From positions 1 through 12,508 of the forward strand of contig CAMWKY010000028.1 of the NCBI GenBank assembly GCA_947174965.1: a stretch of DNA of 12,508 bases, given 5' to 3'. Numbering within the stretch: position 1 is the stretch's first letter; every line of letters starts with the position of its first letter. The translations under genes were made by a program, and so were the position numbers. The stretch is from an uncultured Ruminococcus sp. (lineage in GTDB: Bacteria > Bacillota > Clostridia > Oscillospirales > Ruminococcaceae). Under the pieces are notes generated by a model. The model was not told the origin of the DNA. It saw only the letters and a program-made list of their open reading frames with translations, and did no database searches. This document shows positions 1-12,486 of this stretch, one piece after another.

Positions 1-79
1 ATTCCATTGTAAATATAGATAACTTTCACACCGAATATTTATATATTATATACAAAAAGCGGAAAAATCAAAAACTGTA

Positions 80-107
80 TTGACATTAATTTTTAAAGGA
101 ATATAAT
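80..107 (+). promoter_or_regulatory. Sigma-A promoter of the ABC exporter operon
   Basis: A perfect -35 box TTGACA (80-85) and a perfect -10 box TATAAT (102-107) are separated by 16 nt. Transcription should start near 113-115, immediately upstream of the CIRCE operator, leaving an untranslated leader of about 135 nt before the ATG at 251. This is the best promoter in the window and points at the ABC genes. Confidence 0.88.
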
Positions 108-131
108 AGTTGTATAGAAACATGATAATTG

Positions 132-158
132 TTAGCACTCTGCACACGAGAGTGCTAA
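132..158. promoter_or_regulatory. CIRCE operator (HrcA binding site)
   Basis: The inverted repeat TTAGCACTC (132-140), a 9-nt spacer and GAGTGCTAA (150-158) match the canonical CIRCE element at every arm position. CIRCE is the operator of the heat-shock repressor HrcA and normally sits before groESL or hrcA-grpE-dnaK. Here it lies roughly 18-44 nt after the predicted transcription start of the promoter at 80-107, the usual repressing position. The next gene is an ABC exporter subunit. No chaperone coding remnant is visible between the operator and that gene. Confidence 0.95.
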
Positions 159-250
159 TTTTCATCTTGCTTTCACATATTTATAATACTTTTATCAAAA
201 GACTGCTGTATTATAATGGTAAAATTTTGATTAAGAGAGGAGAAAAAGGA

Positions 251-2005
251 ATGTTCAGATTATTCAGAAACCTGAAAAAAAGAGAATTGCTATGTATAGT
301 CATTGCTTTTTTGTTCATTGTTGCGCAAGTATGGCTTGAACTGAAACTGCCCGATTATATGTCGGAGATAACAAGGCTCGTTCAAACAGAGGGAAGCGAA
401 ATGAATGACATAATAACAGCAGGTGCAAAAATGCTTGTCTGCGCAGGAGGAAGTCTTGTTTCGTCAATTCTTGTCTGTGTACTTTCGTCAAAGGTTGGCA
501 ATAACTTCGCCACAACTGTAAGAGAAAAGTTGTTCAGAAAAGTGCAGGATTTTTCTATGGAGGAGATAAACCATTTTTCAACAGCAAGTCTTATTACACG
601 TTCAACAAATGATGTACAGCAAGTACAGATGCTTATTGTAATGGGTTTGCAGGTTATTGTAAAAGCTCCTGTTATGGCAGTATGGGCGATACTTAAAATT
701 TACAACAAAAGCTGGCAGTGGACGACTGCAACAGCTGTTGCTGTTGTTTTCCTGCTTACAGTTGTAGGTATAATTGTTACACGTGCTATGCCGAAATTCA
801 AGATAATGCAGTCCCTTACGGACGATATAAACCGTGTAACAAGAGAAAATATCACGGGACTTAATGTTGTCCACGCATACAACGGCGAAAAATATCAGGA
901 AGAAAAATTTGAAAAAGCAAACGATAATCTTACGTCAGCACATCTTTTTACAAGCAGGACTATGGCTTTTATGATGCCATCAATACAATTTATAATGAAC
1001 GGATTATCACTTTCAATATACTGTATAGGTGCTTATCTGATTAATGCTTCTATGATGTCCGAAAAAATAACATTGTTTTCTGATATGGTTGTATTTTCGT
1101 CATATGCAATTCAGGTTGTAATGTCATTTATGATGCTTGTAATGATTTTCATGATACTGCCACGTGCATCTGTTGCCGCTAAAAGAATTATGGAAGTTCT
1201 TGACAAGAATATCAGAATAGCTGACGGCACAAAAACAGAAAGCAAATCTGATAATAAAGGTGAGGTTGAATTTAAGAACGTTTCTTTCCGTTATCCTGAT
1301 GCCTCTGCTGATGTTATAGAAAATATCAGTTTCACTGCTGAAAAGGGGCAGACTGTAGCATTTATCGGCTCTACAGGTTGTGGAAAAAGTACAGTAATAA
1401 ATCTTATACCACGTTTTTACGATGTTACAGGCGGTGAAGTTCTTGTTGACGGAATAAACGTGAAAGAGTATCAGCAGAAAGAACTCAGAAACAAAATCGG
1501 CTATGTATCTCAGAAAGCAATACTGTTTTCGGGTGATATTACATCTAATATTGCCTACGGCAACGGCAATGAAAGTATTTCTGATGATGATGTAAAAAAT
1601 GCTGTTGCTGTTGCACAGTCTACAGACTTTGTTGAAAGTCAGAAAAATCAGTATCACGGCTATGTCGCACAAGGCGGGAGCAATTTTTCGGGAGGACAGA
1701 AACAGCGTATTTCAATCGCAAGAGCAATTGCAAAAAATCCTGAAATACTTATTTTTGATGACTCATTTTCTGCACTTGACTATAAAACAGACAGAAAGTT
1801 ACGCAGTGCATTAAAAGAAAAGTGTAAAGATATAACAAAGCTTATTGTTGCACAAAGAATAGGCACTATCAAAGATGCAGACCAGATTATTGTGCTTGAC
1901 GGCGGAAAAATTGTGGGAAAAGGTACTCATGATGAACTTATACAGTCATGCGAAGTATATCAGCAGATAGCACTTTCTCAGCTTTCAAAGGAGGAACTGG
2001 CATGA
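251..2005 (+). CDS. ABC exporter subunit 1 (TMD-NBD half transporter, degenerate ATP site)
   Basis: This is a 584-aa half transporter of the multidrug/lipid exporter type, a six-helix membrane domain followed by an ATPase domain. The ATG at 251 is chosen because AGGAG (238-242) lies 8 nt upstream; the frame stays open further upstream but runs through the CIRCE operator. Walker A GSTGCGKST is at about 373-381 and the signature FSGGQ at 479-483. Walker B ends in FDD (503-504), with Asp where the catalytic Glu normally sits, and the switch His is replaced by Gln535 (VAQR). These two changes mark the degenerate-site partner in heterodimeric exporters such as TM287/288 and BmrCD. The stop overlaps the next start (ATGA), so the partner is translationally coupled. 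The substrate cannot be read from the sequence. CIRCE control suggests heat or protein-stress induction. Confidence 0.9.
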   Translation: MFRLFRNLKKRELLCIVIAFLFIVAQVWLELKLPDYMSEITRLVQTEGSEMNDIITAGAKMLVCAGGSLVSSILVCVLSSKVGNNFATTVREKLFRKVQDFSMEEINHFSTASLITRSTNDVQQVQMLIVMGLQVIVKAPVMAVWAILKIYNKSWQWTTATAVAVVFLLTVVGIIVTRAMPKFKIMQSLTDDINRVTRENITGLNVVHAYNGEKYQEEKFEKANDNLTSAHLFTSRTMAFMMPSIQFIMNGLSLSIYCIGAYLINASMMSEKITLFSDMVVFSSYAIQVVMSFMMLVMIFMILPRASVAAKRIMEVLDKNIRIADGTKTESKSDNKGEVEFKNVSFRYPDASADVIENISFTAEKGQTVAFIGSTGCGKSTVINLIPRFYDVTGGEVLVDGINVKEYQQKELRNKIGYVSQKAILFSGDITSNIAYGNGNESISDDDVKNAVAVAQSTDFVESQKNQYHGYVAQGGSNFSGGQKQRISIARAIAKNPEILIFDDSFSALDYKTDRKLRSALKEKCKDITKLIVAQRIGTIKDADQIIVLDGGKIVGKGTHDELIQSCEVYQQIALSQLSKEELA

Positions 2006-3996
2006 GGGGAATGAGACCTGCTCTTACAATGGAGAAAGAAAAAATCGACAAAGCTACATGGGGAAAACTTGTCAGCTATTGTCACAAGTATATTTTTGCT
2101 GTTATTATTGCTGTAATATGTGCTGCCTGCGGAACAGTTTTCACGCTTATAGGACCTGACAAATTATCAGAAATCACTAATATTGTAACAGAGGGAATCG
2201 CTCCTGATACCGACAAATTTGGTGAGATAACAGGAGCAGTTACACAGAACTTTCAAAGTGGTATGCCACAGGATATTACAATTGACGGAGCTGTAATTTC
2301 AATAGCTGACCAACAGAAAATGCTTGAAATTTTGAGCAATGTTGATAAAGATGATATGGATTCAGCATTGAAATCTATGGATAATCTGCCCGAATCAGTA
2401 TATGAACTGATTAAGCCGTCTGTTGATATAGATGCAATACTCAAAATAGTTATCACTTTAGGAATACTATATGTTATAGGCTGGTTTATGTCATCAGTTC
2501 AGGGCTTTACAATGGCAACAGTTACTCAGTCAGTTACAAAATGTTTCAGAACTGATATTTCAAAGAAAATAAACCGTCTGCCAATGTCATATTACCATAA
2601 AACATCAACAGGCGATGTGCTTTCAAGAGTTACAAACGATATTGACACTATCGGACAGACTCTTAATATGAGTATCGGTATGCTTGTATCAGCAGTGACA
2701 TTATTTTTAGGCTCACTGTTCATGATGCTTAAAACAAGCGTAACCATGACAGTATCGGGAATTATTGCTACTGTTATAGGATTTGCCCTTATGATGACTA
2801 TTATGAGACATTCACAGAAATATTTTACCCGTCAGCAGAAAAATCTTGGTGCTTTAAATGGTCATATAGAGGAAATGTACTCAGGACATACTGTTGTCAA
2901 GGCTTACAATGGTGAGGAAAATGCAATAAATGAATTTGTAAGACTTAATAACAATCTCAAAGACAGCGGATTTATGGCTCAAGCTTTATCGGGTCTTATG
3001 ATGCCGATTATGAACTTTATAGGAAATCTCGGCTATGTTGTTATCTGCATTGTGGGCGCATCACTTGTAATGAACGGCACAATAAAATTTGGTGTTATAG
3101 TTTCGTTCATGATATACATCAGATTCTTTACTCAACCGCTTTCACAAATTGCACAAGCGGCACAATCACTGCAACAGGCAGGTGCAGCAGCATCAAGAGT
3201 ATTTGAATTTCTTGAAGCAGAGGAAATGACGGACGAAAGCAACAAGAAAAAACTTGATATTGATGTAAAGGGTGATGTTTCATTCTCTCATGTCAGATTT
3301 GGCTATAATCCTGATAAAATTATTATCAACGACTTTTCAGCAGATGCAAAAGCAGGTCAGAAGATTGCAATTGTCGGACCTACAGGTGCAGGAAAAACAA
3401 CTCTTATCAATCTGCTTATGCGATTCTATGAGATAGACGGCGGTGAAATTAGAATCGACGGCATACCTACATCAGATATGACAAGAGAAGATGTACACAA
3501 TCAATTCTGTATGGTTTTACAGGATACATGGATATTTGAAGGAACTGTAAGGGAAAATCTTATCTACTGTTCTGAAAATAATTCACAGGAAAAAATGGAA
3601 CAGGCTTGCAAAGCTGTCGGTCTTGACCGATTTATCCGCACTCTGCCTGACGGATATGATACGGTACTTAATGACAATGTAAGTCTCTCACAAGGACAGA
3701 AACAACAGCTCACAATTGCAAGAGCTATGATTGATGATAAGCCGATTCTTATACTTGACGAGGCAACAAGCTCCATAGATACAAGAACAGAACTGAAAAT
3801 CCAGAATGCTATGGACGAACTTATGAAAGGCAGAACATCTTTTGTTATTGCACACCGTCTTTCAACTATTAAAAATGCCGACCTTATACTTGTATTAAAG
3901 GACGGCGATATAATAGAAAGCGGAAATCATGAGCAACTTCTTGAAAAGAATGGTTTCTATGCAGAACTCTATAACAGTCAGTTTGAAACAGACTGA
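2002..3996 (+). CDS. ABC exporter subunit 2 (TMD-NBD half transporter, canonical ATP site, extracellular insert)
   Basis: This is a 664-aa half transporter that should pair with the preceding subunit. The start at 2002 follows AAAGGAGG and overlaps the upstream stop by 4 nt. Walker A GPTGAGKTT is at 459-467, Walker B LDE has its catalytic Glu at 587, and the switch residue is His618. The signature is LSQGQ (562-566) instead of LSGGQ, which fits because this signature would complete the partner's degenerate site. Between TM1 (about 29-50) and TM2 (about 146-170) is an insert of some 75-95 hydrophilic residues, long for a type IV exporter loop. It should lie outside the cell; BmrD-like subunits have a comparable extracellular domain at this place. 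The gene ends 11 nt before a terminator hairpin. Confidence 0.9.
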   Translation: MRGMRPALTMEKEKIDKATWGKLVSYCHKYIFAVIIAVICAACGTVFTLIGPDKLSEITNIVTEGIAPDTDKFGEITGAVTQNFQSGMPQDITIDGAVISIADQQKMLEILSNVDKDDMDSALKSMDNLPESVYELIKPSVDIDAILKIVITLGILYVIGWFMSSVQGFTMATVTQSVTKCFRTDISKKINRLPMSYYHKTSTGDVLSRVTNDIDTIGQTLNMSIGMLVSAVTLFLGSLFMMLKTSVTMTVSGIIATVIGFALMMTIMRHSQKYFTRQQKNLGALNGHIEEMYSGHTVVKAYNGEENAINEFVRLNNNLKDSGFMAQALSGLMMPIMNFIGNLGYVVICIVGASLVMNGTIKFGVIVSFMIYIRFFTQPLSQIAQAAQSLQQAGAAASRVFEFLEAEEMTDESNKKKLDIDVKGDVSFSHVRFGYNPDKIIINDFSADAKAGQKIAIVGPTGAGKTTLINLLMRFYEIDGGEIRIDGIPTSDMTREDVHNQFCMVLQDTWIFEGTVRENLIYCSENNSQEKMEQACKAVGLDRFIRTLPDGYDTVLNDNVSLSQGQKQQLTIARAMIDDKPILILDEATSSIDTRTELKIQNAMDELMKGRTSFVIAHRLSTIKNADLILVLKDGDIIESGNHEQLLEKNGFYAELYNSQFETD

Positions 3997-4007
3997 AATA
4001 CAAAAAG

Positions 4008-4037
4008 TCCCCCACTTTGAAAGTGAGGGATTTTTTT
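4008..4037. terminator. Rho-independent terminator, probably bidirectional
   Basis: The arms TCCCCCACTTT (4008-4018) and AAAGTGAGGGA (4020-4030) form a hairpin with one mismatch and a tight loop, followed by seven T on the + strand (4031-4037). On the - strand the hairpin is followed by a T5 run (the A run at 4002-4006). It lies between two convergent genes and can end both the ABC operon and the zinc-ribbon gene. Confidence 0.85.
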
Positions 4038-4038
4038 A

Positions 4039-4536
4039 TCAGTCAATCTTTGCGCCACATTTGCTACAGAAAGCAGCTCCGTCCTGCAATTTTTCACCGC
4101 ATACAGAACAGAAATTTACTGTCTCTGCCTCTACCTCAACAACTTCCTGTTCTACAACAGGTTCAGGCTGTTTTACTTCTGCACCGCATTTATTGCATAC
4201 TCTTGAATCCTGTGGGATAGCTTCACCGCAGGCATCACAAATAAGCATACCATCCAAAAGGTTAACCTGCTTTTTAAGACCATCAACTTTTGCCTGCTTT
4301 TCCTTTATTGAAGTAAATTCAGCACTGAATGCAGTTGAATCAGGAGAGTTTTTATAAAGTTCTCTGCCGATATTAAGGAAAATATCATTGATTTCATTGT
4401 TAAGCTGATTTATTTCCTTATTGAGACGGTTTTTCTCTGTAATTTTCTGAACACCGTCAGAAGCGTCCTTGATGCCCTTGTCAACAGTTGTTGTTACTTT
4501 TCCTGCAATATCTTTAAATTTTTCTTTAAATCCCAT
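4039..4536 (-). CDS. Coiled-coil protein with two C-terminal zinc ribbons
   Basis: This 165-aa soluble protein has no signal peptide or membrane helix. Residues about 30-95 are rich in Lys, Glu, Asn and Leu in a heptad-like pattern, predicting a helical coiled coil. Two zinc ribbons follow: Cys100, Cys103, Cys114, Cys117 and Cys143, Cys146, Cys157, Cys160, each CxxC-x10-CxxC. An acidic Val/Glu-rich linker (about 122-140) separates them. Such proteins are common in clostridia and have no defined function; binding a protein or nucleic acid is only a guess. The start has AAGGAGG (4546-4552) at good spacing. It lies 45 nt after the phosphorylase gene, so it is probably co-transcribed. A TTGACG on the - strand near 4585-4590 could be part of a weak internal promoter, but its -10 partner is poor. 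Confidence 0.8.
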   Translation of the reverse strand: MGFKEKFKDIAGKVTTTVDKGIKDASDGVQKITEKNRLNKEINQLNNEINDIFLNIGRELYKNSPDSTAFSAEFTSIKEKQAKVDGLKKQVNLLDGMLICDACGEAIPQDSRVCNKCGAEVKQPEPVVEQEVVEVEAETVNFCSVCGEKLQDGAAFCSKCGAKID

Positions 4537-4581
4537 TTTGCAAGACCTCCTTAGTTATATAAATATTTTAATCAGATTGCT

Positions 4582-5868
4582 TTACGTCAAAGTTGAAATA
4601 CTCGAAGTAAGCGTTCTGAATCTTATTGAATTATAAGCCCTTAATGCAGGTTCTGAAAAATCACTGCACAAGTTTGAATAAAGGGTCATAAGCGGAGCAT
4701 CTACGGAAATTTTATCGCCTACAGAAAATTCAAGTACAATACCTGCTGTGCTGTCTATATCGTCATCTTTCTCAATTCTGCCTGCTCCTAACAGAAGTGA
4801 TGCCATTCCTATTTCTTCTGTATTTACGGAAATAATCTCCACATCTCTTGATGAACATATAGTATGGCTGAATTTTGCTTTCGGAAGAAGTTCCACATCA
4901 TCACATATTCTTTCATCACCGCCATGCAATCTTATTGTTTCTTTCAATACAGCCAAAGCACGTCCGGAATTTATGGAATCTTCTGCCATTGCAACACATT
5001 CCTCATAACTTCCCTTTTCGGCAAGTTCAAGCATATTTGCTGTAAGTTCAATGCAGGTATCATATAGTCTGCCTTTGGATTTGCCGTTCAGAATCTCTAT
5101 TGCTTCCTTTATTTCAAGAGCATTTCCGATACAGTTTCCAAGAGGTACATTCATATCAGTCACAATAGCACGACATTTCTTGCCTGCCATAGTTCCGACT
5201 TTCTCCATAAGTTTTGCAAGACGCTGAGCATCTTCTTCTGTTTTCATGAAAGCACCTGAACCACATTTTACGTCAAGCAACAGACAATCTGCATTTACAA
5301 CAAGCTTTTTACTCATAATGCTTGCACAGATAAGCGGAATACTGTCAACTGTACCTGTTGCATTTCGCAGGGCATACATTTTTTTGTCGGCAGGACAAAG
5401 CTCGTCGCTTTGTGAGATTACAGAAAATCCGGTCTTGTTTACAATATCAATAAATTCATTGAACTGTAATTCTGTACGATAGCCATTGATACTTTCAAGC
5501 TTGTCAATAGTACCTCCTGTATGTCCTAATCCACGACCTGACATTTTCGGAACTGCAACACCGCAAGCCGCCGCCATAGCCCCGATAATAATAGTAGTCT
5601 TGTCGCCGACTCCTCCTGTACTATGTTTATCAACAGTAACTTTATTTATACTGCTTAAGTCAAGAACATTTCCGCTGTCACGCATTGCAAATGTAAGGGC
5701 AATAGTTTCTTCATCTGTCAATCCGTTCAGACAAACAGCCATAAGCCATGAGGACATCTGATAATCAGAAATTTCTCCCGATATATAGCCATTTACAAGA
5801 TACTGTATTTCACTTTCTGAAAGAGGGATTGATTTTTTTGTTTTGTTAATTATATCAACTGGGTTCAA
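4582..5868 (-). CDS. pdp: Pyrimidine-nucleoside phosphorylase
   Basis: This 428-aa cytoplasmic enzyme reversibly cleaves uridine, deoxyuridine or thymidine with phosphate to give the base and (deoxy)ribose 1-phosphate, for nucleoside salvage. The family signature SGRGLGHTGGT is at about 110-120. The phosphate-binding segment DKHSTGGVGD is at about 80-89. The substrate-binding stretch with the pattern R-x(14)-S-x(3)-K follows (ALRNATGTVDS then IMSKK). Length fits Pdp (about 430 aa); thymidine phosphorylase DeoA is the close alternative. I place the start at TTG 5866-5868. A GTG at 5875-5877 is in frame, but it is part of the AGGAGGTG ribosome site. The TTG lies 8 nt after AGGAGG, and its product, MNPVDII, matches the N-terminus of known Pdp proteins. 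The last dozen residues do not resemble the usual family end. Confidence 0.92.
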   Translation of the reverse strand: MNPVDIINKTKKSIPLSESEIQYLVNGYISGEISDYQMSSWLMAVCLNGLTDEETIALTFAMRDSGNVLDLSSINKVTVDKHSTGGVGDKTTIIIGAMAAACGVAVPKMSGRGLGHTGGTIDKLESINGYRTELQFNEFIDIVNKTGFSVISQSDELCPADKKMYALRNATGTVDSIPLICASIMSKKLVVNADCLLLDVKCGSGAFMKTEEDAQRLAKLMEKVGTMAGKKCRAIVTDMNVPLGNCIGNALEIKEAIEILNGKSKGRLYDTCIELTANMLELAEKGSYEECVAMAEDSINSGRALAVLKETIRLHGGDERICDDVELLPKAKFSHTICSSRDVEIISVNTEEIGMASLLLGAGRIEKDDDIDSTAGIVLEFSVGDKISVDAPLMTLYSNLCSDFSEPALRAYNSIRFRTLTSSISTLT

Positions 5869-8298: not shown

Positions 8299-8853
8299 AT
8301 GATTAAAAATTTTTTTGGTCACCTGAAAACAATTACTGCTCATCGTCACATGGTAATGATTCACTGCTTTAAAGCAGGTATTATAAAACGTGGTCTTCTG
8401 CATGATTTGTCAAAATATTCACCTACAGAATTTATTCCGGGAGTGCTTTATTTTCAGGGCAACAGAAGTCCGAATGAGCGTGAAAGAGAAGTAAACGGCT
8501 ATTCTATGGCATGGATTCACCACAAAGGCAGAAACAAGCATCATTTTGAATACTGGACGGACTACAGCACAAAAACAGGTACTCTTGACCCTGTAAAAAT
8601 GCCCGATAAGTACATTTTTGAGATGTTCTGCGACCGTGTTGCCGCATCAAAAATATACAAAAAAGATGAATATAATGATCGCTGTCCGCTTGAATATTTT
8701 CTGAAAGCAAAGAAAAAACGTGCAATTGAAACAGTTACAGCAAAAAAACTTGAGTTTCTGCTTACTATGCTTGCGGAAAAAGGTGAGGACTATACATTCA
8801 GATTTATAAGAAAACAAGTTAAAAAAATCAGAAAATCGGAGAAAAAAATATGA
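8299..8853 (+). CDS. DUF5662-family protein
   Basis: This 184-aa soluble protein has a clear family look. HLKTITAHRHMVM (8-20) is followed by CFKAG, then LLHDLSKYSPTEF (33-45) and YFQGNRSPNE (51-60). HHKGRNKHHFEYW comes next (74-86), then KMPDKYIFEMFCDR (100-113) and the C-terminal LLTMLAEKGEDYTF. The many invariant-looking His and Asp residues (His15, His35-Asp36, His74, His75, His81, His82, Asp112) suggest a metal-binding helical fold like the HD phosphohydrolases. That is an inference; the family has no established activity. The stop overlaps the start of the GH3 lipoprotein gene by 4 nt (ATGA), so the two are translationally coupled. The C-terminus is strongly basic. Confidence 0.85.
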   Translation: MIKNFFGHLKTITAHRHMVMIHCFKAGIIKRGLLHDLSKYSPTEFIPGVLYFQGNRSPNEREREVNGYSMAWIHHKGRNKHHFEYWTDYSTKTGTLDPVKMPDKYIFEMFCDRVAASKIYKKDEYNDRCPLEYFLKAKKKRAIETVTAKKLEFLLTMLAEKGEDYTFRFIRKQVKKIRKSEKKI

Positions 8854-10223
8854 AAAAATTCATTTCTCTCTTTATGCTTACAACTATAATTTTAAGTGGG
8901 TGCGGAGTTGTGGACAGTGTGGAAATTATATCAGACGGAAATTTTGCGTCAGAAATATCAACTACAACAACATCTGATTCCGCAAATGATGATGATATTC
9001 AACAGACAGAATCAGCAACAAGCTATAGCACTACAACTACATCATCACACACGGAACAGACAACAGAAAAAAGTATTTTCGTTGTTACAGCAGAAACATC
9101 TACAAAAACACAAGCTGTATATACTATACCGCCTATTGAAACAGCAATTCAGACAACAACAGCACCTGTTGCAGTTCAGATGAGTTCAAAAGTACAAAAT
9201 CATCTTGCTGAAATGTCTCTGCATGAAAAAATCTGTCAGATGTTTATTGTAATCCCTGAAGCTGTCTCCGGATATGATGTATTTACCTATGTTGACTGCA
9301 ATTTTCACAAGGGATATTCTGATTACCCTGTCGGAGGTTTTATTTTCTTTGCAAAAAATATAATATCGTCCGAACAGACTGCAATAATGATTACAGATAT
9401 GCAGAATGATGCTTTATATATGGGAACTGGTGCTTTTATGGCTGTTGACGAAGAAGGCGGTACTGTTACAAGAGTACAGTCACAACTTGGTGAACAGGCT
9501 GTATATGATATGAACTACTATGGCGGTCTTAATGACTGGAACACAGCTTATTCAGTCGGCGAAATTATTGGCAGTTATCTTTCGGGCTATGGATTCAATC
9601 TTGACTTTGCACCCGTTGCAGATGTAAATATAAGTCCATATAATGAACTTGGCTCACGTATTTTCAGTACTGACCCGCAAATTGTCGCCGATATGTCGGG
9701 GGCTGTCGTAGACGGTTTGCAGTCACAAGGTATTTGCAGTACACTCAAGCATTTTCCCGGTCTGGGAGCAGGAAACAGCAATACGCATTACAACTCCGTT
9801 TGGATTGACAGAACGCATGAACAATTACAGCAGACTGAATTTCCTGCATTTAAAGGCGGTATTGATGCAGGAAGTGACTTTGTTATGGTCGGTCATCAGA
9901 TTACATCAGCATCAGGTGACAATCTGCCCGGTAATTTATCAAAAGTTGTCGTGACAGACTGGCTAAAAAATGAACTTGGATTCAAGGGTCTTGTTGTTAC
10001 AGATTCGCACAGCATGGGTGCAATTACAAACGTCTATACAAGCGGTGAAGCATCTGTTCTTGCTATTGAAGCAGGTGTTGACATGGTGCTTATGCCGTCC
10101 AGTCTTGCTGACGCTGTTGCAGGAGTTGAACAGGCAGTTCAGTCGGGCAGAATATCGGAGGAACGTATAAACGAAAGTGTTGTAAAAATCCTCAGCAAAA
10201 AAAATGAACTTGGACTAATATGA
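8850..10223 (+). CDS. GH3-family (NagZ-like) glycoside hydrolase lipoprotein
   Basis: This 457-aa lipoprotein is predicted to be displayed on the outer face of the membrane. A signal peptide ends in the lipobox LSGC (Cys18). A Ser/Thr-rich linker (about 34-108) leads to one GH3 catalytic barrel. The barrel shows AEMSLHEKICQMF (120-132), DEEGG (200-204), FAPVADV and KHFPGLG (300-306). The nucleophile is Asp385 in VTDSHSMGAI. The family removes beta-linked N-acetylglucosamine (or related sugars), in bacteria often during peptidoglycan recycling. In NagZ the acid/base is an Asp-His dyad in a mobile loop; here the His is kept (His313) but the Asp position reads Asn311. Activity or specificity may therefore differ. 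The gene is coupled to the DUF5662 gene (ATGA) and followed by a terminator. Confidence 0.9.
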   Translation: MKKFISLFMLTTIILSGCGVVDSVEIISDGNFASEISTTTTSDSANDDDIQQTESATSYSTTTTSSHTEQTTEKSIFVVTAETSTKTQAVYTIPPIETAIQTTTAPVAVQMSSKVQNHLAEMSLHEKICQMFIVIPEAVSGYDVFTYVDCNFHKGYSDYPVGGFIFFAKNIISSEQTAIMITDMQNDALYMGTGAFMAVDEEGGTVTRVQSQLGEQAVYDMNYYGGLNDWNTAYSVGEIIGSYLSGYGFNLDFAPVADVNISPYNELGSRIFSTDPQIVADMSGAVVDGLQSQGICSTLKHFPGLGAGNSNTHYNSVWIDRTHEQLQQTEFPAFKGGIDAGSDFVMVGHQITSASGDNLPGNLSKVVVTDWLKNELGFKGLVVTDSHSMGAITNVYTSGEASVLAIEAGVDMVLMPSSLADAVAGVEQAVQSGRISEERINESVVKILSKKNELGLI

Positions 10224-11226: not shown

Positions 11227-12486
11227 TTAGTCAGTTACTCTTAATTCGCTTATAAGCTTACGCATAACTATAACATCATAGACATCTGCTCTGCCGTCAT
11301 TATTAACATCACAGGAATATTTGTAATCATCTGTATTAACTGCAAGAATATAGCTTGCGCAGTAAACCAAATCCGCTATTGAGACTTTACCATCATGATT
11401 GAGGTCGCCGTATTCATACTCAACATCAGGATTTTCACCATAATTCCATGATGCAATTTCAGGATATTTAAGACATACTGTAAAATATTTCTCACACGGT
11501 GAATGATTTGTGTTGAAATCGTCTGAACCTTTCAGAAAATACTTGCTTACAACTTCAACACCGTCTTTGCCGTCCTTGTCGTCCCATGTAACATCAACCG
11601 CATACCAGCAGTTATCTTCCATAAGCACATAATTCCACATATGAGCAACTTTTTCCTCTGCATTGTAGTTGCCGAAAACGCATATACAAGGTATGCCTAT
11701 TTTGTCGCAAATCATCTTGAATCCCTTTGAATATCCCTCACATACAGATGCAGTTGTTACAAGAGAACTCAAGGCAGAGCCTGAAAATACGCCGTTTTCA
11801 TCATAGTATGTAAATTCCGCAATTTTATCATGAATACATTTCAGTTTTTCAGAATTTGTATCGCCCTTTACCTCAAAATCTTCAACAGCTTTTTCAAGCT
11901 GAATCTTATAACTCATAATATCATCTATATCAGAAAATCCGCTGTAGGCAACAGGAGTTATTGTAATTGTCCTGATAGTGTAAGTATAGATTTTTGTCTT
12001 TATATCATATGAATATGTAAGATTATTCGGCGATACACTCATTTCATTTTGATTAAACCAGAAAATCTCCGGCTTATCAAACAATACAGCATGAACAGCA
12101 CTTGAACAAGTACCAAAAACAGCATTAATAAGATTCTGGTCTGTTGAGGTAAGTTTTGTTGTAGTAAATTTTACCGATTCAGGAAGTGTTATAGTGATTT
12201 TATCAAGCGACGGTGTAACAAGTTTTGCAAGTTCATCATATACTGCTTTATTATTGGCATCAAGATAATCACCTAAAAGATAGCAGTCTGAATCTGCAAG
12301 AATTTTCGGGAAATCAGAAAAATCAAGTGAAATTCCGTCATATTCTCCCATAACAAAACATTCGTCCGACATATCGGCAACACCCGTTTCAATTGAATCA
12401 TCAGCAACTGAAAAGACAGGTACAGACGCTCCGAAAACAGAAAATGCCATTACACATGACAGCATATGACATAAAATTCTTTTCAT
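11227..12486 (-). CDS. Secreted transglutaminase-like protein with C-terminal type I dockerin
   Basis: This 419-aa exported protein has a signal peptide at about 1-28 with a likely cut after SVA. Residues about 40-205 resemble no domain I recognise. A transglutaminase-like (papain-fold) core follows with a full Cys-His-Asp triad: Cys249 in SVCEGYSKGF, His282 in AHMWNYV and Asp298 in YAVDVTWDD. The C-terminus (about 360-413) is a type I dockerin with two calcium loops, DLNHDGKVSIAD and DVNNDGRADVYD, each followed by a helix. A dockerin docks a protein into a cohesin-bearing scaffold (cellulosome-type complex) or a surface anchor. The fold suggests protease, peptidase or cross-linking activity, not sugar cleavage; the substrate is unknown. 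GGAGG lies 8-9 nt before the ATG at 12486. No promoter is visible in the 22 bases left at the window edge. Confidence 0.88.
   Translation of the reverse strand: MKRILCHMLSCVMAFSVFGASVPVFSVADDSIETGVADMSDECFVMGEYDGISLDFSDFPKILADSDCYLLGDYLDANNKAVYDELAKLVTPSLDKITITLPESVKFTTTKLTSTDQNLINAVFGTCSSAVHAVLFDKPEIFWFNQNEMSVSPNNLTYSYDIKTKIYTYTIRTITITPVAYSGFSDIDDIMSYKIQLEKAVEDFEVKGDTNSEKLKCIHDKIAEFTYYDENGVFSGSALSSLVTTASVCEGYSKGFKMICDKIGIPCICVFGNYNAEEKVAHMWNYVLMEDNCWYAVDVTWDDKDGKDGVEVVSKYFLKGSDDFNTNHSPCEKYFTVCLKYPEIASWNYGENPDVEYEYGDLNHDGKVSIADLVYCASYILAVNTDDYKYSCDVNNDGRADVYDVIVMRKLISELRVTD

Follow-up and report, generated by a model that had tools for sequence, protein, structure and literature searches.

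A heterodimeric ABC exporter operon behind a perfect CIRCE operator in Ruminococcus: a probable HrcA regulon member with an hsp20-like control region

We propose that the ABC exporter operon described here was brought into the HrcA regulon through a copied operator-promoter of the small heat-shock gene hsp20, and that it is repressed in unstressed cells and induced together with the chaperones; we put the probability of this reading at roughly three in four. The presumed copy, CIRCE (the HrcA operator) followed by about 57 bp of hsp20 leader, would have a strong sigma-A promoter (P1) on its 5′ side and the exporter genes on its 3′ side. As long as cells are unstressed, free GroEL/ES would keep HrcA active, and HrcA would occupy CIRCE and block P1, the operator falling at about +18 to +45 of the P1 transcript if transcription starts some 7 bp past the -10 box. 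Bound HrcA would probably also block the abutting copied promoter (P2). Once misfolded proteins occupy GroE, HrcA would be released and the exporter would be made along with the chaperones, the benefit probably being that compounds which are harmful or act on membranes, and which accumulate under stress, are exported. In this scheme we infer that HrcA binds, that stress induces the operon, that P2 is used, which way the copying went and what the benefit is. The regulatory principle itself is established: in the excerpts of three reports consulted, GroE keeps HrcA active, and titration of GroE by misfolded proteins leads to expression of the CIRCE genes (PMC3828012, PMC6362236, PMC8045354).

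The exporter operon and its leader

The window, by which we mean the whole stretch of 12,508 nucleotides analysed, is contig C28 of a 2.33 Mb gut Ruminococcus genome assembled in 371 contigs and 83% complete. The exporter operon is intact (251-3996), the start of the second gene overlapping the stop codon of the first. Both products carry PF00664 and PF00005, a membrane and an ATPase domain apiece, as two adjacent half-transporters. In heterodimeric ABC exporters one degenerate and one canonical ATPase site are expected; the Walker B region reads IFDDSFSALD in half 1 (degenerate) and ILDEATSSID in half 2 (canonical). By its domains, its overlapping genes and this IFDD/ILDE pair, the operon encodes a heterodimeric ABC exporter, as the preliminary description had claimed for the genes downstream of CIRCE. 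Solved relatives by sequence include TM287/288 (3qf4), 8wcw and 7ocy. None of the 25 NCBIfam models shown for each protein reached its curated cut-off, and therefore no substrate can be named.

The leader is ordered as a consensus promoter, CIRCE and then the exporter genes (Table 1). P1, with TTGACA at 80-85 and TATAAT at 102-107, is the sole 12/12 match in a promoter scan of window positions 1-4600; these 4.6 kb also returned 30 lower-quality sites against 17.6 expected, so that only P1 is striking. The operator, TTAGCACTC-N9-GAGTGCTAA, occurs once in the window, dinucleotide shuffles averaging 0.01 matches with up to three mismatches. The earlier claim of a perfect CIRCE behind a TTGACA-16-TATAAT promoter was thus confirmed in both parts, with no mismatch in the operator and 12 of 12 in the promoter. 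The P2-like site, absent from the preliminary description, begins at the base directly 3′ of CIRCE. A longer open reading frame starting at TTG 110 would place CIRCE within the gene; ATG 251, with GAGAGGAG ahead of it, is the likelier start on sequence grounds.

Table 1. Features of the exporter locus (window positions; all on the + strand)
Feature	Position	Strand	Support
P1, sigma-A-type promoter TTGACA-16-TATAAT	80..107	+	12/12 consensus; same in sister
Perfect CIRCE (HrcA operator)	132..158	+	0 mismatches; perfect in sister (L043:3582)
Putative copy of hsp20 control region (CIRCE + 57 bp)	132..215	+	69/84 identical to own hsp20 leader
P2-like site TTTTCA-17-TATAAT	159..187	+	10/12 consensus; putative promoter
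GTATTATA, end block common to hsp20 leaders	208..215	+	possible -10 of copied promoter; putative function
GAGAGGAG, likely ribosome-binding site	235..242	+	sequence
ABC exporter half 1, 584 aa, degenerate ATPase site	251..2005	+	domains, motif
ABC exporter half 2, 664 aa, canonical ATPase site	2002..3996	+	domains, motif

We noted that, on the transcribed strand, the CIRCE repeat with the T's that follow it (131-159) also scores as a hairpin resembling a terminator. Together with the presence of marR next to the exporter in some relatives, this could mean that a repressor other than HrcA uses the site, or that the inverted repeat acts at the RNA level, as a hairpin or attenuator. Against this, the same exact CIRCE consensus is common to hrcA, htpG and hsp20 of this genome, no regulator gene stands beside the exporter in the window or in its sister locus, and the T-run after the hairpin is weak. 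We therefore regard both versions of this explanation as most improbable.

The window starts at the contig end, with only 131 bp 5′ of CIRCE, and in a genome that is incomplete one might fear an assembly chimera. The gap is filled by the corresponding locus (L043) of a sister genome, the separately named MAG Ruminococcus sp. SC0367_S14_1, whose exporter is 96% identical and where P1, a perfect CIRCE and the leader are all present. Its contig extends about 3.6 kb further upstream than the window and reaches a divergently oriented gene whose product is a large secreted protein. Since the sister MAG has the same order on a longer contig, the association of CIRCE with the exporter is not an assembly accident, and the chance of a chimera is negligible. 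The intergenic regions of window and sister are so alike that intact CIRCE arms alone do not prove selection. Elsewhere in the window, a dockerin-bearing transglutaminase-like protein (11227-12486) and a glycoside hydrolase family 3 protein (8850-10223) are encoded; the dockerins suggest a cellulosome-making host.

Relation of the leader to the hsp20 control region

A search of the genome with window positions 60-262 returned one significant second match, the hsp20 CIRCE on contig C15 (83% over window 130-215, E 9.4e-19), the next-best match having an E of 0.22. The similarity is not confined to the operator: 3′ of CIRCE, a 56-bp ungapped alignment to the genome's own hsp20 scores 57, and none of 5000 shuffles exceeds 32. 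On the 5′ side, exporter and hsp20 resemble each other no better than by chance (a score as high arose in 225 of 2000 shuffles). Over CIRCE and the 57 bp that follow, the exporter leader matches the own and the sister hsp20 at 69 of 84 positions, tied best of 23 hsp20 leaders; the same positions give 53-64 matches for the 21 hsp20 leaders of other species, and 33-38 for the leaders of own hrcA, own htpG and sister groES. When only the 57 positions past CIRCE are counted, own hsp20 matches at 45, and the hrcA, htpG and groES leaders at 13-17. The 9-bp CIRCE spacer matches own hsp20 at 7 of 9 positions, the next best reaching 6. Because hsp20 of this lineage gives both the best leader match and the best spacer match, it is most likely the donor.

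CIRCE and the exporter leader could instead have arisen independently of hsp20, for example as a general promoter-operator module. CIRCE-like sites before exporters elsewhere are indeed built differently, the operator itself containing TTGACA or TTGAAA, so other routes to such an arrangement are possible. Such convergence would have to produce the ungapped match outside CIRCE and the preference for own hsp20 over the three other CIRCE leaders, and it sits poorly with the genus-wide occurrence of the hsp20 leader: CIRCE with up to three mismatches and the common leader were found at 22 of 30 genus hsp20 loci, with none in the stretch examined at the other 8. We consider it very unlikely. The preliminary description had also raised a rearrangement that removed a chaperone operon and left its control region behind. 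The chaperone-gene origin stands; the idea of a remnant does not, since the hsp20 region still exists and appears to have been copied.

The extent of the similarity bears on what was copied. It stops at GTATTATA (a GTATYATA-type block is present in most genus hsp20 leaders), just ahead of the conserved hsp20 5′ UTR block (CAATGAAACGAAAGGA), and this would mean that operator and promoter were copied and the UTR was not. Copying would have run from hsp20 to the exporter, in keeping with the 22 of 30 genus hsp20 loci that have CIRCE and the common leader. The TTTCA and TCACA blocks are kept along with the end block; unlike the exporter, which has a single CIRCE, own hsp20 has a pair. Judged by the 21 hsp20 leaders of other species, 28 of the 57 leader columns are at least 80% conserved, and in 27 of these the exporter leader shows the consensus base. 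Its 12 differences from own hsp20 fall once in these 28 conserved columns and 11 times in the 29 variable ones (Fisher p 0.0024, with sites treated as independent). Conserved leader positions were preferentially retained, a sign that the copy works.

Where the hsp20 promoter lies is indicated by one locus (L221), in which a terminator-like hairpin, seen by eye, stands directly 5′ of CIRCE; that hsp20 promoter should therefore sit at or after the operator. Comparison of 22 leaders did not fix its exact -35 and -10 boxes.

Two further observations concern hsp20 operators. The gene diverging from the hsp20 CIRCE pair is nadB in this genome (L004:137-282) and a transporter-like gene at another locus (L200:1380-1550); these genes might share HrcA control with hsp20. 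A second type of hsp20 (L188, L190-L195, L197) has a CIRCE with one mismatch and a -35 TTGACA within the right arm; CIRCE of this type is also found near serine-recombinase-like genes (L187-L189), a neighbourhood that suggests mobility.

The HrcA regulon and control of the exporter

HrcA is encoded in this genome (contig C94, PF01628). Sites with up to three mismatches are found before the exporter (C28), htpG (C53) and hrcA (C94), and as a pair on C15 by nadB. Contig C15 ends beside this pair, and own hsp20 was found on C150 (PF00011); the sister has the same pair between nadB and a divergent hsp20, and by this comparison we assign the C15 pair to hsp20. The sister also has CIRCE before groESL, plus two sites identical to the own htpG and hrcA sites. 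No groESL CIRCE was seen in the own assembly, which is 83% complete. The exporter site thus resembles the Gram-positive HrcA/CIRCE regulon in its operator sequence, in its leader position with respect to P1, and in the company of CIRCE at hrcA, htpG and hsp20 here and at groESL in the sister. The preliminary description had predicted an HrcA-regulated exporter; this is the best reading and is partly supported, by the encoded HrcA, by the sites at hrcA, htpG and hsp20, by the sister and by other lineages.

It could be objected that the hsp20 copy supplies only a promoter, P1 or other factors setting expression with little useful control by HrcA. Within the genus sample only a single species pair has the arrangement, and in P1 the exporter already possesses a fully consensus promoter, which shows no similarity to the region upstream of hsp20. 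On the other hand, CIRCE lies within the likely transcribed P1 leader, the classical position for repression; both of its arms are perfect and the conserved leader columns are kept; and CIRCE-like sites precede the same exporter family in other lineages. On balance we find this objection unlikely to be right.

In Clostridium acetobutylicum, the known HrcA targets are the hrcA operon, groESL, htpG and the membrane protein CAC2705 adjoining groESL; the excerpt consulted names no stand-alone exporter operon that carries a CIRCE itself (PMC3828012). More generally, the sources excerpted describe direct HrcA targets as mostly chaperones, with few exceptions such as CAC2705 and rpoH. HrcA-dependent expression of transporters has been reported, again in excerpted form, for Helicobacter pylori and Lactobacillus plantarum: one report includes dpp ABC subunits among the HrcA-dependent changes (PMC6843607), and in another an hrcA mutant showed altered expression of ABC transporters and multidrug transporters (PMC3842655). 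Those cases are transcriptome effects, whereas here a perfect CIRCE lies in the exporter's own leader. Among the titles and abstract openings listed from the open-licence literature, there was no report of a CIRCE-controlled ABC exporter. Control through CIRCE is itself classical; what provisionally appears new is a heterodimeric ABC exporter as a direct target, reached via a copied hsp20 region.

HrcA control acquired in this way would show concretely how the protein-stress response can take on an efflux system, through a copied operator-promoter. It predicts that the exporter removes something that accumulates once GroE is overloaded. Efflux by gut bacteria could then increase under stress from heat, bile, acid or solvents with no need for a sensor of its own.

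Related exporters within and beyond the genus

The arrangement is sporadic. In a genus sample of 100 genomes, 22 besides the own genome have an exporter match at E 5.1e-193 or better, and 21 of these homologues could be examined, L135 being without upstream sequence. CIRCE precedes the exporter in the sister only (1/21); G195 of this sample appears, by its coordinates, to be the sister genome itself, G148. The other 20 (52-64% identity) have no CIRCE within four mismatches in the locus examined, and they may not be orthologues. The preliminary description would have counted absence of CIRCE from close relatives against HrcA control: the sister, which has it, speaks the other way, and the 20 homologues lacking it agree with such an absence, subject to their doubtful orthology. 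A family sample gave no site in 29 loci (L014-L042, one of them also a genus member).

Among 80 loci of named genomes, four of which have less than 130 bp of upstream sequence, a site with up to three mismatches lies directly before the exporter at L043 (0 mismatches), L061 (2), L069-L071 (3) and L088 (3). The three nearly identical loci L069-L071, where the site is 59 bp before the exporter start and overlaps another imperfect hairpin seen by eye, were counted as one weak lineage. A candidate at L047 was rejected: its two-mismatch site (3316) precedes a DUF445 gene, and marR lies between that gene and the exporter. We record separately that the gene behind the CIRCE at this locus (L047:3316-4328) encodes a membrane-protein-like DUF445 product (PF04286) and that a marR-exporter operon lies downstream of it.

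The marR-linked heterodimeric ABC exporters belong to the same family as the one described here; they differ from it in that neither the window nor L043 contains marR. We compared 148 distinct relatives, after dropping those with less than 50% identity, an alignment start past residue 60, less than 500 bp upstream (the window included) or identical proteins. With marR just upstream (83 relatives) none had a CIRCE-like site, against 6 of the 65 without it (Fisher p 0.006), one of the six (L425) having been sampled because of its site and the rows being related. A stricter filter left 129 rows and four site-bearing loci (p 0.023), and a tree-aware test of marR against CIRCE was not significant (median p 0.25). 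That CIRCE replaces control by MarR is thus suggestive only.

Other lineages show the association too: a site with two or three mismatches immediately precedes the homologous exporter in a further MAG labelled Ruminococcus (L061) and in three small Bacilli. The L088 genome (G248, an uncultured member of the Bacilli, 0.9 Mb) has four sites with up to three mismatches, at htpG, a Clp ATPase gene, hrcA and the exporter. Its family has an exporter match in 152 of 291 sampled genomes, and 3 of 130 exporter upstream regions carry a site: G248 (three mismatches), G472 (two) and G368 (three). These 130 comprise 30 loci, one of only 258 bp, which yielded G248 and G472, and 100 stretches, which yielded G368; shuffles of the 100 stretches gave four mismatches in 1 of 3000 and three never. 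G472 likewise has four sites, at htpG, the Clp ATPase gene, hrcA and the exporter, and G368 has sites at these same genes plus one that is unassigned. Of the non-exporter sites of the three genomes, 9/10 lie before hrcA, htpG or the Clp ATPase gene. Sites with three mismatches may be weak operators; three mismatches are also seen at hrcA in G248 and at htpG in G368.

TTGACA or TTGAAA lies inside the operator in L061, L088, G472 and G368, as in the second CIRCE-hsp20 type of the genus, and these exporter sites therefore arose differently from that of the window. A tree of 149 exporter proteins calls for at least six changes of site state, or at least five without L069; their number does not distinguish gain from loss. 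In the family sample of L061, the site was found in 1 of 22 homologues, L061 itself, and the nearest relative (81%) is without it.

These scattered cases raise the tentative idea, towards which we are somewhat sceptical, that selection has repeatedly enlisted this exporter family in the protein-stress response. Separate lineages of Clostridia and Bacilli would have placed it under HrcA, one of them by copying the hsp20 operator-promoter, because it exports a substance harmful to folding or membranes when GroE is saturated. If so, HrcA in some small Bacilli would have no more than four or five targets, the exporter among them, efflux would belong to the core of the heat-shock response there, and CIRCE would take the place of a local MarR sensor.

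The L061 genome (G246) has seven sites: at hrcA, the groEL operon, htpG and the exporter, and three more (C57, C183, C152) without a chaperone assignment. The site on C57 (L239:1501-1527; G246:C57:7320) is a perfect CIRCE by a tRNA-like gene with no chaperone seen, and the nearest open reading frame found downstream, 300 bp away, encodes a membrane-transporter-like protein of 329 aa. On C183 (L254:27-53) a CIRCE with one mismatch lies near the contig end, and the first open reading frame of at least 90 aa, at 473, encodes a membrane-protein-like product.
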